40,685 nucleotides of DNA from Patescibacteria group bacterium (GTDB lineage: Bacteria > Patescibacteriota > Patescibacteriia > 2-12-FULL-60-25). The notes under the pieces were generated by a model. It did not search any database. It saw only the letters and a program-made list of their open reading frames with translations, and had not been told where the DNA came from. A program made the translations under genes and the position numbers. Location of the stretch: positions 1-40,685 of the forward strand of contig JAQURS010000009.1 in NCBI GenBank assembly GCA_028715505.1. The letters are read 5' to 3'. Within the stretch, counting starts at the first letter, position 1, and every line of letters starts with the position of its first letter. Shown here piece by piece: positions 18,061 to 29,866 of this stretch.

Positions 18061-18101
18061 TTATCCACAGGTTTGACATACCTTTGCGTGACTGTTGATA
18101 T
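18061..18101 (+). promoter_or_regulatory. dnaA promoter with an adjoining DnaA box
   Basis: A perfect DnaA box TTATCCACA lies at 18061-18069, then TTGACA (18073-18078), 17 bp, TGATAT (18096-18101). The box is 3 bp behind the -35 element, the usual place for DnaA to control its own gene. A second possible promoter, TTGATA with GATTAA, overlaps downstream. Confidence 0.7.
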
Positions 18102-18135: not shown

Positions 18136-19539
18136 ATGAATCCCAATGAAATTTGGCAAGCAGCGCTTGGGGAGCTTGAACTTACACTTTCCAAGGCCAA
18201 TTTCACTACTTGGTTTAAAAACACATTCATATCAACCTTTGAAAACGCTAAAATTATCATCGCTGTTCCAAATACGTTTACAAAGGCTTGGCTGGAAAAG
18301 AAATATCACGAGGCCATCGTCCGTTCACTGCGCAACGCCACCAATAACGGCGTCCGTGAAGTCACTTATCGTGTCGAGGTCCGCAACACCAGCCCAATTC
18401 CAGGCTTTTCGAGCGCTGAAAGCATGGAATCAAGCTATCCCGTACCCACCCTGGAAGAGCCCTCTCTGGAACAAAAAGAAGGAAAATCCGAGGGTTTAGG
18501 CTCAATTGGGCTCAATCCCCGCTATACCTTTGAATCATTTGTGGTCGGTAAGACTAATGAGTTGGCCCATGCGTCGGCCCAAGCCGTTTCGGCCAGTCCG
18601 GGCGTGACTTACAACCCACTTTTTATCTTTGGAGGGGCCGGTTTGGGCAAAACCCATCTTCTACAAGCCATCGGACACCATGTTTTGAAGGAAAAGCCCA
18701 ATGCTAAGGTGCTATATGTAACTTGCGAGCGCTTCACGAATGACTTTATCCAGTCCGTCCGGGGCGGCCGAGGCAAGGAATTCAAGGATACTTACCGGAA
18801 TTTGGACGTTTTGCTCCTGGACGACATTCAATTCATCGCCGGCAAAGACAGCACCCAGGAGGAATTTTTTAATACCTTCAATACCCTCCACCAACTTAAC
18901 AAGCAGATCGTAATCACCTCTGACCGGCCGGCAAAAGACATCCAAGGCCTGGAAACCAGGATTGTTTCCCGCGTGGAGTGGGGCATGACGGCCGATATCT
19001 CCAGCCCGGACTTTGAAACCCGCGTGGCCATCCTCCAAGGCAAGTCAAACGAGAAGAATTACCGCCTCAGCATGGATATTCTGCGCTACATAGCGGGCAC
19101 CATCCAATCAAACGTGCGCGAACTTGAGGGCGCCCTGAATAAAGTCATCGCTTACCATCAATTTAAGAGTGCCGAACCGACCATGGAATCGGTTCAAAAC
19201 CTTCTCCAGAGCTTTGTGCCCAATATTCCCAAGCGGACCATCACGCCCCGCAAGCTTTTGGAGATCGTTGTGTCCTACTACGACATAAAAATGGAGGAAT
19301 TACTTGGCAAAAGCCGCGAGCAACGCCTGGCCTTCCCCCGCCAAGTGGCCATGTACCTACTCCGCGAGGAGGCTAAGTGCTCTTTCCCGGCTATTGGCAA
19401 GCAAATTGGCAGCCGCGACCACACCACAGCCATGCATGCCTGCAATAAAATTTCCGAACTACTTAAAAAAGACGAGCAGTTGCAAAGGGACTTAAACCTG
19501 ATGCGTGAAAAACTCTACATGGGGACACAGAATGCCTAA
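18136..19539 (+). CDS. dnaA: Chromosomal replication initiator protein DnaA
   Basis: 467 aa, full length. Domain I is MNPNEIWQAALGELELTLSK with FTTWFKNT, then a short linker (about 88-120). The AAA+ domain carries Walker A GGAGLGKTH (166-174), Walker B LLLDDIQFIAGK, and the Arg finger region GLETRIVSRVEWG. Domain IV is a helix-turn-helix with the DnaA-box signature SRDHTTAMHAC (about 426-436). It binds oriC and melts it to start replication. There is no Shine-Dalgarno. It is followed by dnaN across a 231-bp AT-rich gap that is probably oriC. Confidence 0.99.
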   Translation: MNPNEIWQAALGELELTLSKANFTTWFKNTFISTFENAKIIIAVPNTFTKAWLEKKYHEAIVRSLRNATNNGVREVTYRVEVRNTSPIPGFSSAESMESSYPVPTLEEPSLEQKEGKSEGLGSIGLNPRYTFESFVVGKTNELAHASAQAVSASPGVTYNPLFIFGGAGLGKTHLLQAIGHHVLKEKPNAKVLYVTCERFTNDFIQSVRGGRGKEFKDTYRNLDVLLLDDIQFIAGKDSTQEEFFNTFNTLHQLNKQIVITSDRPAKDIQGLETRIVSRVEWGMTADISSPDFETRVAILQGKSNEKNYRLSMDILRYIAGTIQSNVRELEGALNKVIAYHQFKSAEPTMESVQNLLQSFVPNIPKRTITPRKLLEIVVSYYDIKMEELLGKSREQRLAFPRQVAMYLLREEAKCSFPAIGKQIGSRDHTTAMHACNKISELLKKDEQLQRDLNLMREKLYMGTQNA

Positions 19540-19770: not shown

Positions 19771-20904
19771 ATGCAATTCTCTTGTACTCAAGAAAATTTA
19801 GTTCAAGGACTGTCGGTCGTGAGTCATGTGACTGGAAAGAATATCAATCTTCCTGTGTTGGGCAATGTCCTTATAAAAGCCGAGAAAGGTGGAATAAATT
19901 TTCATGCCACGAATTTGGAGATATCTATTAGTTGTACGGTTAGGGGTAAAATCGACACGGAGGGTGAATATAGCGTTCCGGCCAAGTTATTATTTGATTA
20001 CATTTCCCTTTTACCATCAGGCAAAGTTGAATTTGAGCTTAAGGAAAGTGGTTTAGAAGTAAGGTCTAACGGCCAGGATACGGTTTTAAGGGGAATGATG
20101 GCCAGCGAGTTTCCTCTTTTGCCTAAGTTGAATAAGAATACGACTTTCCAATTGAAGGCTAGCGAGGTTAGGCAGGCGATCGGCCAGGTGGTCTTTGCCG
20201 CTTCTTTGTCTGAATCCAGGCCAGAGCTCTCAGGTGTGGCTTGTTTCTTTAATCCAAGTAATAAACCTGGCAAGGCGGCGTTTGTGGCCACGGATTCGTA
20301 TCGGTTGGCTGAGAAGTTAATTACTTGCCAAGAGGCTAACCGGACGGCAAATATAATTGTGCCGGCTCGAGCCATGGCTGAGATTGCCCGTATCCTTTCA
20401 TCATATAAAGATGAGCTTGAACCGCCGGAAAACGTGGGTTGGAGTATTACGGACAACCAATTAGTCGTCTCATACGGCACGGTTGAATTGACGACTAGGT
20501 TGATTGAGGCTAGTTTCCCAGATTACCAAAACATTATTCCTTCTAATTTTAAGTCAGAAGCGATCTTGGACCGGGGGGAGCTCTTAAAGGCTGTCAAAGC
20601 CGCTAGTTTGTTTTCTAGGAAGGAGATTAATGACGTGCACCTTCAATTAGCTCCAGGGCAAAGCGAGTGTACGGTTGAATCATCAGATGAGGGAACGGGT
20701 AAGACAAAGACTGTGATTAAGGGCGATGTTTCAGGGGATGAAAACCAAGTTGTTTTAAACTTTAAATACGTCTCAGACGGCTTGAATTCGCTTGGGACTG
20801 ACAGGGTGAGGCTCTCAGTCATTAGCCCCATGTCACCCGTGATGGTTTTACCGGCGGACGAGGATAAGACTTACAGATACCTAGTAATGCCAATCAGACA
20901 ATAA
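19771..20904 (+). CDS. dnaN: DNA polymerase III subunit beta (sliding clamp)
   Basis: 377 aa, full length. It has three repeated clamp domains of about 120 aa. The start is MQFSCTQENLVQGLSVVSHV, domain 1 includes NLPVLGNVLIKAEKGGINFH, and the C-terminus SPMSPVMVLPADEDKTYRYL-VMPIRQ carries the usual P-(x)-P-(V/L)-(x)-(I/L) end. The ring tethers polymerase III to DNA. The GGAG before the ATG is only 1 nt away and so is unlikely to be a ribosome site. recF and gyrB do not follow; the strand switches to the surface-protein cluster. Confidence 0.98.
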   Translation: MQFSCTQENLVQGLSVVSHVTGKNINLPVLGNVLIKAEKGGINFHATNLEISISCTVRGKIDTEGEYSVPAKLLFDYISLLPSGKVEFELKESGLEVRSNGQDTVLRGMMASEFPLLPKLNKNTTFQLKASEVRQAIGQVVFAASLSESRPELSGVACFFNPSNKPGKAAFVATDSYRLAEKLITCQEANRTANIIVPARAMAEIARILSSYKDELEPPENVGWSITDNQLVVSYGTVELTTRLIEASFPDYQNIIPSNFKSEAILDRGELLKAVKAASLFSRKEINDVHLQLAPGQSECTVESSDEGTGKTKTVIKGDVSGDENQVVLNFKYVSDGLNSLGTDRVRLSVISPMSPVMVLPADEDKTYRYLVMPIRQ

Positions 20905-26557: not shown

Positions 26558-27472
26558 TTAAAAGTTAGCTGTTAATAAGTAACGAACTTTTTGGTGGTAA
26601 TTAGCAGCCGGAGTAAAGGGCATGATATTGATTTTATATATAATGGCAATCCGATCGTTATCGGCGGTCGTTGTCGAGGTTTGAATCTCCCGCAACGTGC
26701 TGGTTACGTTAAAATCACGGCCAGTGCTGGTTGCGGTTGTTCCAAATACGCGAGCTCCATATTCCTCGGCGTCTGGGGAGACCTCATCATCCGAAACGTC
26801 CATGATGTGAGTCGAGGTAGATCCCCTTAGATAACCGTCCGATTGCATGTAAACCGTGTATCCGCTTAAAGAGTTGGTGGTTACATCGGTTCGGCTGACC
26901 GTAGTTTTGCTAACATTTGGCTCAAGTCTGCCGAAAACCCCATTCTGTGCCTCCATCCTATATACATAGTCATCATCCCCTAACGGATTTATTGAGATTT
27001 GGGACACTTGCCCATCCCATTTATCTACAGTCAGTGTATTGCCAAGGATTGATTCGATCTTACCGATGATTGTTTTTTGGTGCAGGCCTAAGTTTTCTAC
27101 GACTGCTATATATGTTCCGGTTGAAAACGAGGTGGCCAAAGAAACGGTTACTGTTTTTGTCGAGGTTGATAAGGCGAGATAAGGTACTTGAGTGTTGTTT
27201 TCTTGGGCGCTTACGCTTAAGGAAAGTGTTGGTTGATAGTCGTCCGACTGACGATAGCCGGCCGAAAGAGTGTAATTTGTGCTAGTTGACAGTCCGGTTG
27301 CCTGTTCTCCGATAGTGTCGCGCAATCGATAATTGGTCGAAGTGCTGTTATCGTTGCCGCCGCTATTGATGGAATCGGAACGAACTTCAAAATTCGTGCT
27401 AGTCATTGCTGCTTGCACGGAGCTCATGGTCAAAAATAACCCGGTTATTAATGCGCAGACGAAGAGGCGCAT
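26558..27472 (-). CDS. Exported Ser/Thr-rich surface protein (304 aa)
   Basis: A signal peptide (MRLFVCALITGLFLTMSSVQ-AA) precedes an N-terminal tract with two short repeats: STNFEVRSDSINSGG, and TSTNYRLRDTIGEQATG followed by TSTNYTLSAGYRQ. This tract occurs in many exported proteins of CPR and related bacteria. The body is rich in Thr, Ser and Val. It ends YHQKVRYLLTANF, matching the tail of the 25439 product in style. TATAAT lies 12 bp before the ATG. First gene of the surface cluster; no anchor of its own. Confidence 0.72.
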   Translation of the reverse strand: MRLFVCALITGLFLTMSSVQAAMTSTNFEVRSDSINSGGNDNSTSTNYRLRDTIGEQATGLSTSTNYTLSAGYRQSDDYQPTLSLSVSAQENNTQVPYLALSTSTKTVTVSLATSFSTGTYIAVVENLGLHQKTIIGKIESILGNTLTVDKWDGQVSQISINPLGDDDYVYRMEAQNGVFGRLEPNVSKTTVSRTDVTTNSLSGYTVYMQSDGYLRGSTSTHIMDVSDDEVSPDAEEYGARVFGTTATSTGRDFNVTSTLREIQTSTTTADNDRIAIIYKINIMPFTPAANYHQKVRYLLTANF

Positions 27473-27575
27473 ATTACGATTAGGATTATAGCATTTGAGT
27501 TGAAGTATTTACTTGTTGATAAGCTATTTGTTTAAATATAGCGAAATTCTTTGTGTCTAAAAATATTAAGTAAAG

Positions 27576-27591
27576 TGTTTCACGTGAAACA
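27576..27591. other. parS site 1
   Basis: Perfect 16-bp palindrome TGTTTCACGTGAAACA, the binding site of ParB. Confidence 0.93.
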
Positions 27592-27614
27592 CTCCCCTGC
27601 TTTTTACGCTGGAT

Positions 27615-27630
27615 TGTTTCACGTGAAACA
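27615..27630. other. parS site 2
   Basis: Perfect TGTTTCACGTGAAACA, directly followed by the promoter of the 27693 gene. Confidence 0.93.
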
Positions 27631-27634
27631 AAAA

Positions 27635-27663
27635 TTGACTTATCAAATAGTGAGAGGCAAAAT
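27635..27663 (+). promoter_or_regulatory. Promoter of the 27693 gene
   Basis: TTGACT (27635-27640), 17 bp, CAAAAT (27658-27663). It starts 4 bp after parS site 2, so ParB binding or spreading could shut it off. Confidence 0.55.
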
Positions 27664-27692
27664 TGAAAAACTCACTCGAATGGAGGAAAACC

Positions 27693-27947
27693 ATGTCAGA
27701 ACCGGATTGGGGACCTACTCGGTATACTGAGCAAGAAGATTCAAGTCCGCGCCCTTTGACGTTTGCTGGGCTTTGCAAGTCACACCAATTCATACTGTTG
27801 CCCATCGATGGATTCGTGCCTGGTCGTAGTAGAGTATGGCGCGCTGAACCACTTTACAAAAAGATCAGCGATACAAAGGCCATAAGAGTGAGACAAGGTA
27901 CTAAAGTCGATGTCGCTCCCGGGACGTTTGTTATCGAAGTCGAGTAA
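27693..27947 (+). CDS. Hypothetical protein (84 aa) inside the parS cluster
   Basis: The start MSEPDWGPTRYTEQEDSSPR is set by TGGAGGAAAACC. The product is soluble, with a likely beta-rich C-terminus (TKAIRVRQGTKVDVAPGTFV). I do not recognise the family. It lies between parS sites 2 and 3, with its own promoter and a terminator whose T-run touches site 3. The ribosome site is identical to that of the 30440 gene. An upstream in-frame start at 27663 lacks a ribosome site. Confidence 0.65.
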   Translation: MSEPDWGPTRYTEQEDSSPRPLTFAGLCKSHQFILLPIDGFVPGRSRVWRAEPLYKKISDTKAIRVRQGTKVDVAPGTFVIEVE

Positions 27948-27953
27948 CTCCTT

Positions 27954-27976
27954 GCCACTGTTGCAGTGGCTTTTTT
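27954..27976 (+). terminator. Terminator of the 27693 gene
   Basis: GCCACTG-TTG-CAGTGGC then TTTTTT. The T-run abuts parS site 3. Confidence 0.88.
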
Positions 27977-27991
27977 GTTTCACGTGAAACA
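27976..27991. other. parS site 3
   Basis: Perfect TGTTTCACGTGAAACA. Confidence 0.93.
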
Positions 27992-28031
27992 ATTTAGTGA
28001 AAATAGGGTAGTTTTACGTGTTTTGGTTTAA

Positions 28032-28047
28032 TGTTTCACGTGAAACA
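28032..28047. other. parS site 4
   Basis: Perfect TGTTTCACGTGAAACA. Confidence 0.93.
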
Positions 28048-28078
28048 TTAAGTTTTGTCAAAATCGGGCATATTTCAG

Positions 28079-28094
28079 TGTTTCACGTGAAACA
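28079..28094. other. parS site 5
   Basis: Perfect TGTTTCACGTGAAACA, adjoining a 10-bp hairpin. Confidence 0.93.
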
Positions 28095-28118
28095 CAAATC
28101 CCGCCGAAGCGGGATTTG
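28095..28118. terminator. Perfect hairpin after parS site 5, terminator-like
   Basis: CAAATCCCGC-CGAA-GCGGGATTTG, a 10-bp stem. The flanking T-run is short, so it may be a degraded terminator. No gene ends immediately before it on either strand. Confidence 0.5.
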
Positions 28119-28154
28119 ATGGTGGATCAAGTTCGAACCCCATACTTTTATAAT

Positions 28155-28180
28155 CTAAAACCCGCTTACGCGGGTTTTAG
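28155..28180 (-). terminator. Terminator after tRNA-Ala
   Basis: CTAAAACCCGC-TTAC-GCGGGTTTTAG, an 11-bp stem, 1 bp past the tRNA-Ala CCA on the minus strand. Confidence 0.85.
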
Positions 28181-28181
28181 A

Positions 28182-28258
28182 TGGTGGACCGAGGGGGATT
28201 CGAACCCCCGACCTCTGCAATGCGAATGCAGCGCTCTAGCCAACTGAGCTATCGGCCC
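28182..28258 (-). tRNA. tRNA-Ala (anticodon CGC)
   Basis: Acceptor GGGCCGA/TCGGTCC with the G3-U70 pair that marks tRNA-Ala. The anticodon stem is CTGCA/TGCAG with loop TTCGCAT (anticodon CGC, reads GCG), and the T-loop is GGTTCGAATCC. The discriminator A and the 3' CCA are encoded. Confidence 0.97.
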
Positions 28259-28295
28259 TAGGAACGAACAAATAGCAAATTTATTTGGTATTTGT

Positions 28296-28387
28296 GAGTG
28301 ACGACGGGTCGATACAGCGGAGCTGTACCGGCCTGGCCACCCTCGAGCGACGACGGGCAGGTATCGCGTAGCGAGTATCGGCCAGGC
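28296..28387. repeat. Two imperfect 42-43 bp palindromic repeats, REP-like
   Basis: Units at 28296-28337 and 28345-28387 both run GAG(T/C)GACGACGGG ... GGCC(T/A)GGC around a variable hairpin core (GATACAGC-GGA-GCTGTACC in one, GGTATCGC-GTA-GCGAGTATC in the other). The ends are conserved and the loops differ, as in REP-type elements. They lie between tRNA-Ala and parS sites 6-7. Confidence 0.55.
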
Positions 28388-28391
28388 AAAT

Positions 28392-28407
28392 TGTTTCACG
28401 TGAAACA
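28392..28407. other. parS site 6
   Basis: Perfect TGTTTCACGTGAAACA. Confidence 0.93.
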
Positions 28408-28423
28408 ATTTGTTGTTTCGGAG

Positions 28424-28439
28424 TGTTTCACGTGAAACA
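28424..28439. other. parS site 7
   Basis: Perfect TGTTTCACGTGAAACA, 32 bp from site 6 and 37 bp before tRNA-Arg(CCT). Confidence 0.93.
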
Positions 28440-28475
28440 CTCTTGGGCAAGGAAAGCTTTAGGCTTGGTTGCCCA

Positions 28476-28550
28476 TGGCGTTCCCGAGTGGAATCGAACC
28501 ACTAACTAGGGCTTAGGAGTCCCTTGTTATATCCATTTAACTACGGGAAC
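28476..28550 (-). tRNA. tRNA-Arg (anticodon CCT)
   Basis: Acceptor GTTCCCG/CGGGAAC. The anticodon loop CTCCTAA gives anticodon CCT (reads AGG). The anticodon stem AGGGA/GCCCT has an A-G mismatch next to the loop. The T-arm carries GGTTCGATTCC. The 3' CCA is encoded. With the TCT gene at 5357 this covers both AGR codons. Confidence 0.94.
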
Positions 28551-28658
28551 AGGATGAGTCGTAAAATATTTAAATATACGATTCTTTTGCTTATTTAAGC
28601 CAATAAATAGTAACTCAAAAATTGGATAACGTCAATATGAGGTAAGCTGGGCCTAACA

Positions 28659-28687
28659 TTGACATTAATCAGGAATACGCATAATAT
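28659..28687 (+). promoter_or_regulatory. Promoter of rpsT
   Basis: TTGACA (28659-28664), 17 bp, TAATAT (28682-28687), 11 nt before the ATG, so the leader is only about 4-5 nt. Confidence 0.8.
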
Positions 28688-28698
28688 AATCGCCATCT

Positions 28699-28968
28699 AT
28701 GCCAAACAAGCAATCAGCCATGAAGGAGCTGCGCAAGACAAAGAAGAGGACTGCGCATAACTTTCGGATCAAGACTAACATAAAGGCTTTGATGTCGAAG
28801 AGCAAGCAATTGATTGAAAAAGGGGACTTGGCCGAAGCTAAGAAAATGGTTTTGGCTTTGCAGGTTGCGTTAGACAAAGCGGCCAAAGTAAATGTGATTT
28901 CAAAAAATAGCGCGAGCAGGAAAAAGTCGAGAATCATGAAGATGATCGCCAAGCCGGCCACCAAGTAA
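28699..28968 (+). CDS. rpsT: 30S ribosomal protein S20 (bS20)
   Basis: 89 aa: MPNKQSAMKELRKTKKRTAH, then IKTNIKALMSKSKQLIEKGD. The product is helical, strongly basic and of normal length for bS20, which binds the 5' domain of 16S rRNA. There is no Shine-Dalgarno and the leader is very short. It converges with holA, its frequent neighbour, across a shared terminator. Confidence 0.97.
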   Translation: MPNKQSAMKELRKTKKRTAHNFRIKTNIKALMSKSKQLIEKGDLAEAKKMVLALQVALDKAAKVNVISKNSASRKKSRIMKMIAKPATK

Positions 28969-28976
28969 CAATGATT

Positions 28977-29008
28977 AAAAAACTCCCGATTCGCTCGGGA
29001 GTTTTTGT
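28977..29008. terminator. Shared rpsT/holA terminator
   Basis: AACTCCCGA-TTCGC-TCGGGAGTT with A/T runs on both sides. Confidence 0.88.
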
Positions 29009-29029
29009 TTACTATAAGATCTAAAAAAT

Positions 29030-29866
29030 TTAAAATAGAAATTGTAAAATTTCTTGATTTTGAGAAATAGAATTTCGTGAAGCGTACATAGTGCGGATCG
29101 CATCAAGAGTTATCTCTTCCGCTTTGGGTAATCTGATGGAGCCTAATTTTTTCTTCACAAAAGGATGGACATCTTGGGCTTGGTCGGATTTTATCTTGTG
29201 CCAATTCAAGAGTTGCGAGAGAAGTAGGGGAAGGAGCTCTTGCGGATCTTGGGATGCGGCTTGAGCTTTCCAAACAGGATTATTTTTAAAGAATTGATCA
29301 ATAATGGCAAAAACTTGATTGTCGTTTTCGACTGTTTTTTCAAGGGTTTGCGCATTGTTCAAAACGCGTATGCATTGCAAGCTGGATTCAATGGCCCAAA
29401 GGTCGTCACCGTGTAATTCAATGAGTTTTGTTATCAAGTCAGGATTAACTTGGTAGATTTTGCATCGGGTCGCGATCCATTTATTCAGTTCGAGTCCTTT
29501 GGGTTTTTCGTGTGCGTAAACGAACAAGTTTTCTTTCGGAAAAAGATCCAAGATTTTTTGAGTAGGGGATTTGTCTTCGTAAGTCAGTACTACGGTTTGG
29601 TTTTCGTCGACTTTAATCGCTTTAGCTAATTGCTTTGCCTGCGTCTGCGTAATGCCAGCCAAAAGATTTTCGTATTTGAGTAATCGCTTGGAAGCGAAAA
29701 GCCCGAGCGTACTCAAGCGCGTTACCGCGCCTTGCAAAGATGTCTGTGATTCTAGCCTCTCAATCACCGCGCCTTGCGAGACATGTTTTTGTTTGTAAGC
29801 CTCTACCAAGTCGAGCGCTTTTTGTCGCGCTTGGAATGTATCCGGTCCGGTGCAGATGATTAACAT
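29030..29866 (-). CDS. holA: DNA polymerase III subunit delta
   Basis: 278 aa. The start MLIICTGPDTFQARQKALDL is the HolA N-terminus. Later parts include LGLFASKRLLKYENLLAGIT, then KTVVL-type strand QTVVLTYEDKSPTQ, and a helical C-terminal collar domain (LPLLLSQLLNWHKIKSDQAQ). Delta opens the beta clamp within the clamp loader. At 278 aa it is shorter than the E. coli protein (about 340), as in other CPR homologues I would expect. The -10 box TAATAT ends 6 nt before the ATG, so the message is leaderless. Confidence 0.85.
   Translation of the reverse strand: MLIICTGPDTFQARQKALDLVEAYKQKHVSQGAVIERLESQTSLQGAVTRLSTLGLFASKRLLKYENLLAGITQTQAKQLAKAIKVDENQTVVLTYEDKSPTQKILDLFPKENLFVYAHEKPKGLELNKWIATRCKIYQVNPDLITKLIELHGDDLWAIESSLQCIRVLNNAQTLEKTVENDNQVFAIIDQFFKNNPVWKAQAASQDPQELLPLLLSQLLNWHKIKSDQAQDVHPFVKKKLGSIRLPKAEEITLDAIRTMYASRNSISQNQEILQFLF

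Follow-up and report, generated by a model that had tools for sequence, protein, structure and literature searches.

Seven copies of one 16-bp palindrome crowd into less than 1 kb of DNA close to the predicted replication origin of a Patescibacteria group bacterium, which raises the question of whether this locus is a chromosomal centromere of the ParABS type. The window analyzed here, 40,685 nucleotides in length, is the whole of contig C9 in a draft, 97%-complete genome of 1,069,491 bases in 28 contigs. The initial annotation had reported seven mismatch-free copies of the 16-mer TGTTTCACGTGAAACA, the parS site of ParB, within 864 bp (27576-28439), and a recount returned the same seven, here numbered parS 1 to 7 (27576..27591, 27615..27630, 27976..27991, 28032..28047, 28079..28094, 28392..28407, and 28424..28439), i.e., a density of 8 per kb. 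No eighth site was found in the window with up to three mismatches; as shuffled sequence gives an expectation of 0.14 sites for the window at this threshold, chance or base composition was rejected as the source of the seven. When the search for further copies was extended to the whole genome, as had been proposed, none was detected outside the cluster with up to two mismatches, so the sites are not scattered over the chromosome. The palindrome can be extended to 24 bp at parS 4 and to 26 bp at parS 6, a property not peculiar to the family, since other bacteria have an extended palindrome too. What typifies the flanks of parS in the family is A or T directly next to the site, followed by A one base further out, and no more.

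The cluster is bordered on one side by a gene for a PamT-like CPR pilus protein (26558..27472, minus strand), which scored below its model's cut-off, and on the other by rpsT, encoding ribosomal protein S20 (28699..28968, plus strand); both flanking genes are conserved. The pilus gene, together with a genome of CPR size, assigns the bacterium to CPR/Patescibacteria. PamT and an 84-aa open reading frame (27693..27947, plus strand) start divergently, with parS 1 and 2 between them; the frame is preceded by a GGAGG ribosome-binding site, as judged from the sequence, and followed by a terminator-like hairpin (27954..27976, plus strand), with parS 3 immediately 3' of the latter. parS 3 to 5 occupy the space between this hairpin and GC-rich hairpins 3' of the gene for tRNA-Ala(CGC) (28182..28258, minus strand), and a GC-rich inverted repeat, possibly a terminator, lies immediately 3' of the tRNA (28153..28182, minus strand). 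tRNA-Ala is inside the cluster, at a position common to relatives, and parS 6 and 7 separate it from tRNA-Arg(CCT) (28476..28550, minus strand) at the cluster edge. At 27000-29100, the two tRNAs alone reached an Rfam gathering score. The 84-aa frame matched no family in a model search and had no relatives across 40 related loci, four clusters from the same genus among them, and a conserved gene within the cluster was rejected on this ground; because the frame is an orphan, its earlier description as an expressed small gene is unsupported, despite the ribosome-binding site and hairpin. Two other elements were observed in the cluster: at 28115-28154, a 23-base stretch resembling the 3' part of tRNA-Ala (74% identity), followed by its own GC-rich hairpin and possibly a decayed tRNA copy, and at 28296-28372, between tRNA-Ala and parS 6, a 28-base element (GAGYGACGACGGG...) that is present twice, in diverged form, and contains a hairpin in both copies.

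That every site is intergenic, that tRNA-Ala is flanked by sites, and that one parS with its flanks was scored as a terminator-like hairpin would fit a reading in which the palindromes are operators, or attenuator or terminator hairpins, for the tRNA genes, PamT, or the small frame, and form no centromere. We consider this very improbable: the 16-mer is identical to the ParB site, relatives carry 1 to 11 copies at no fixed spacing to promoters, the other tRNA genes of the genome have no copies, and we know of no repressor for this 16-mer besides ParB.

As expected for a centromere, the cluster is origin-proximal. The distance of about 8 kb to the predicted origin given by the initial annotation agrees with the placement of dnaA (18136..19539, plus strand) and dnaN (19771..20904, plus strand), both identified above cut-off with equivalog models, and with a switch in the sign of the GC skew near 20 kb, at dnaN. 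The DnaA box TTATCCACA occurs once, at 18061, and the centre of the cluster is 8.5 kb from dnaA. In eight other genomes (G049, G463, G607, G041, G010, G001, G171, and G214) parS and dnaA are 8-16 kb apart; in G447 and G628 the separation is about 40 kb.

The initial annotation had remarked that neither parA nor parB is visible in the window, which is correct for this contig and not for the genome: a search for ParB elsewhere, also suggested at that time, found a single protein above cut-off, on contig C3, where parB (L046:8574-9506) lies directly behind parA (L046:7785-8561). This ParB is of the chromosomal type and has a GLGRGLGALIP N terminus, a GERR (CTP) motif, ENVQR (ENxQR), GKSR, and a helix-turn-helix region (HTH), and it can be aligned with solved structures of Spo0J, ParB, and Noc. 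Noc, the nucleoid-occlusion protein, and ParB are homologous, and the top-scoring NCBIfam model for the protein is Noc (218.7 bits); one might thus take the repeats for Noc-binding sites (NBS) rather than parS. Such a reading is hardly credible, given that the score does not reach the cut-off of 315 set for this model, that position 173 (Caulobacter numbering) retains the ParB-type R, within GKSR, in place of the Noc-type Q, and that all sites lie at a single origin-proximal spot. Furthermore, the 16-mer found here is that of parS, and NBS and parS differ at two half-site bases (PMC7383237).

At the other specificity position, 201, the protein has S for a G reported to be absolutely conserved among extant ParBs (PMC7383237). 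Because the selection described in the same study also recovered S at 201 among parS-specific variants, we treat this substitution as apparent variation within the family. The C-terminal part of the HTH region reads SASNAR in family ParBs, with S at the G201 position, versus xxGHAR in others. A further difference concerns residue 204 and two forms of the site in the class, the T-form present here and the C-form GTTCCACGTGGAAC, which has C for T at one base: this residue is R in all 31 ParBs from genomes with T-form parS and K in four ParBs from genomes with the C-form, making R204 to K204 a candidate base-reading change in a comparison across related genomes that ignores phylogeny.

The parAB operon is not near the origin; it is on a different contig here, and in relatives whose contigs are long, 145-390 kb separate it from parS. 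On a shared contig, the parS-parB distance is about 217 kb in G049, 202 kb in G463 (single contig), 390 kb in G607, 145 kb in both G447 and G594, and 197 kb in G041, whose near-complete contig was taken as circular. These distances from parS, mostly 8-16 kb for dnaA and 145-390 kb for parB, place the centromere at the origin and the parAB operon away from it. The operon is usually origin-proximal (PMC3899335), which is a usual feature of ParABS and not a defining one.

Both SMC and ScpB are encoded in the genome. The sole protein reaching the level of the SMC_prok_B model is a 748-aa frame (618.8 bits, over the cut-off; L270:1465-3708, plus strand; about 49.2-51.5 kb on contig C4) in which the Walker A, signature, and Walker B motifs are all intact. 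An SMC_hinge domain was undetected in this protein and in six relatives (L291-L296; frames of 751-792 aa), and a hinge is clearly present in the SMC of G214 (E = 6e-31). In the apparently hinge-less proteins, the middle instead holds a conserved stretch around PLPLSKII...LQxPAPEP. If confirmed, the lack of a hinge would be a notable change in the partner machine, and it may be worth more attention than the parS cluster. In this genome (G000:C3 46729-47211 and 63733-64254), as in G607, G049, G010, and G041, a distance of about 5-17 kb separates scpB and parB, a recurring proximity far from the origin.

Comparison with related genomes, another check put forward at the outset, revealed a compact cluster of 1-11 sites at the same tRNA genes. 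With up to one mismatch, parS was detected in 25 of the 36 family genomes (G000-G035). Among the 11 others, rpsT is missing altogether from seven assemblies and the contigs of G009 and G016 end at this spot, so real loss is mostly excluded, nine of the 11 absences being explained by assembly gaps; in G023 and G029, rpsT was assembled and no parS was found in the stretch retrieved. Site layout was measured in 24 of the 25 parS-bearing genomes, with a median of 5.5 sites per genome, a median span of 734 bp, and a median density of 7.2 per kb in those with at least three sites. No parS overlapped a tRNA, PamT, or rpsT in these 24 genomes. Gene order relative to dnaN varies within the family, as if a block had been inverted, and parS is still 8-11 kb from dnaA. 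The initial annotation suggested that ParB spreading could affect expression of the small gene and the tRNAs; that tRNA-Ala lies within the cluster or at its border throughout the family shows only that this arrangement is tolerated.

Site placement was analyzed with 133 sites for which both tRNAs were visible. The interval between PamT and tRNA-Ala(CGC) holds 103 of them and that between tRNA-Ala and tRNA-Arg(CCT) the other 30, compared to 12 expected from its length, and none fell between tRNA-Arg and rpsT, where 16 were expected (P = 3e-8, a value that serves only as a guide, as sites from related genomes were counted as independent). Outside the family this boundary is broken, with one site of G049 on the rpsT side of tRNA-Arg. 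An unlikely, more elaborate proposal makes the tRNA genes working components of the centromere: tRNA-Arg(CCT) and tRNA-Ala(CGC) would be roadblocks, by their transcription, that limit and subdivide the zone of ParB sliding and shield rpsT-holA-polA, parS would flank tRNA-Ala to allow loading of either segment, and ParB would be partnered with an SMC lacking a hinge in an origin machine unlike that of textbooks.

The variable copy number bears on a serious alternative, in which the cluster is a parS centromere whose site number and packing have no special function, extra copies being redundant and drifting. The range of 1-11 copies among relatives is what such drift might produce, and in Pseudomonas aeruginosa a single parS is reported to be enough for proper segregation (PMC4368675). 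On the other hand, most measured sites are perfect matches and decay is therefore slow, placement is constrained, with no sites beyond tRNA-Arg, and the A/T flanks are conserved as well. We give redundancy or drift an appreciable chance of being correct, short of even.

Altogether, the results support, with a probability of roughly 0.9, that the cluster is a compact, otherwise ordinary chromosomal ParABS centromere whose predicted ParB is encoded far away, in keeping with the parS reading of the initial annotation, which is upheld by a ParB in the genome and by sites that are not scattered. The evidence is a set of seven sites, unique in the genome, origin-proximal, and at a place conserved in the family, together with encoded ParA, ParB, SMC, and ScpB; counting against it are a draft genome with parAB on another contig, S201, and the two relatives, G023 and G029, without parS in the stretch retrieved. 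From ParABS biology we infer loading, sliding, and segregation at the cluster: ParB dimers would bind the seven parS sites, form closed clamps with CTP, and slide onto flanking DNA, ParA would move the ParB-loaded origin regions apart, and ParB would probably recruit SMC. Close packing of the sites probably focuses ParB loading in one zone and makes any single site dispensable. A centromere of this kind, defined by sequence and shared across a family of ultra-small bacteria, is of interest in that its variation in site number, spacing, tRNA context, and C- versus T-form parS in sister lineages amounts to a set of natural experiments on the number of parS sites required, on whether ParB spreading is limited by transcription, and on the recognition of parS by ParB.

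We found no description of a centromere from CPR/Patescibacteria in the open literature that we searched, and the cluster was compared with parS sites from a wider survey. Of 286 genomes in the class, 83 have T-form parS with up to one mismatch; the C-form occurs in some of the other genomes, and G037, G047, and G050 have two to three copies of GTTCCACGTGGAAC in a stretch of about 1 kb. At least 119 stretches of named genomes, from many phyla, contain a pair of perfect parS sites spaced 16-46 bp apart. Among the matches listed (80 stretches), density is mostly 2-3 parS per kb, and only L182, a Bacilli MAG with ten parS sites, and L186 have five or more within 1 kb (nine and five, respectively). 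A distant CPR genome has an array (L086; G171:C3:41545-41752) with five perfect parS at an exact 48-bp period, two identical spacers, and dnaA about 15 kb away. The unusual packing first noted is borne out only in part: it is uncommon elsewhere, most members of this CPR family with the region assembled show it, and the density in Myxococcus xanthus is similar. Because the family-wide clusters are matched by the 22 parS in 3.05 kb of M. xanthus (PMC3899335) and the ten of the Bacilli MAG, dense packing is uncommon and not new.

The M. xanthus cluster resembles that described here in density, about 7 per kb compared to 8 per kb, and differs from it in having the C/G form TGTTCCACGTGGAACG and parAB about 4 kb from the sites (PMC3899335). 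With ParABS systems of the Bacillus/Caulobacter type, the locus shares the exact 16-mer, its origin-proximal position, ParB-type motifs, ParB behind ParA, and SMC plus ScpB; unlike in those systems, one 864-bp cluster with tRNA-Ala inside holds all sites, parA-parB is far away (145-390 kb in relatives), and ParB has S201. Relative to other ParABS systems, the locus stands out for the unusually long distance between parS and parAB and for the conserved tRNA context.
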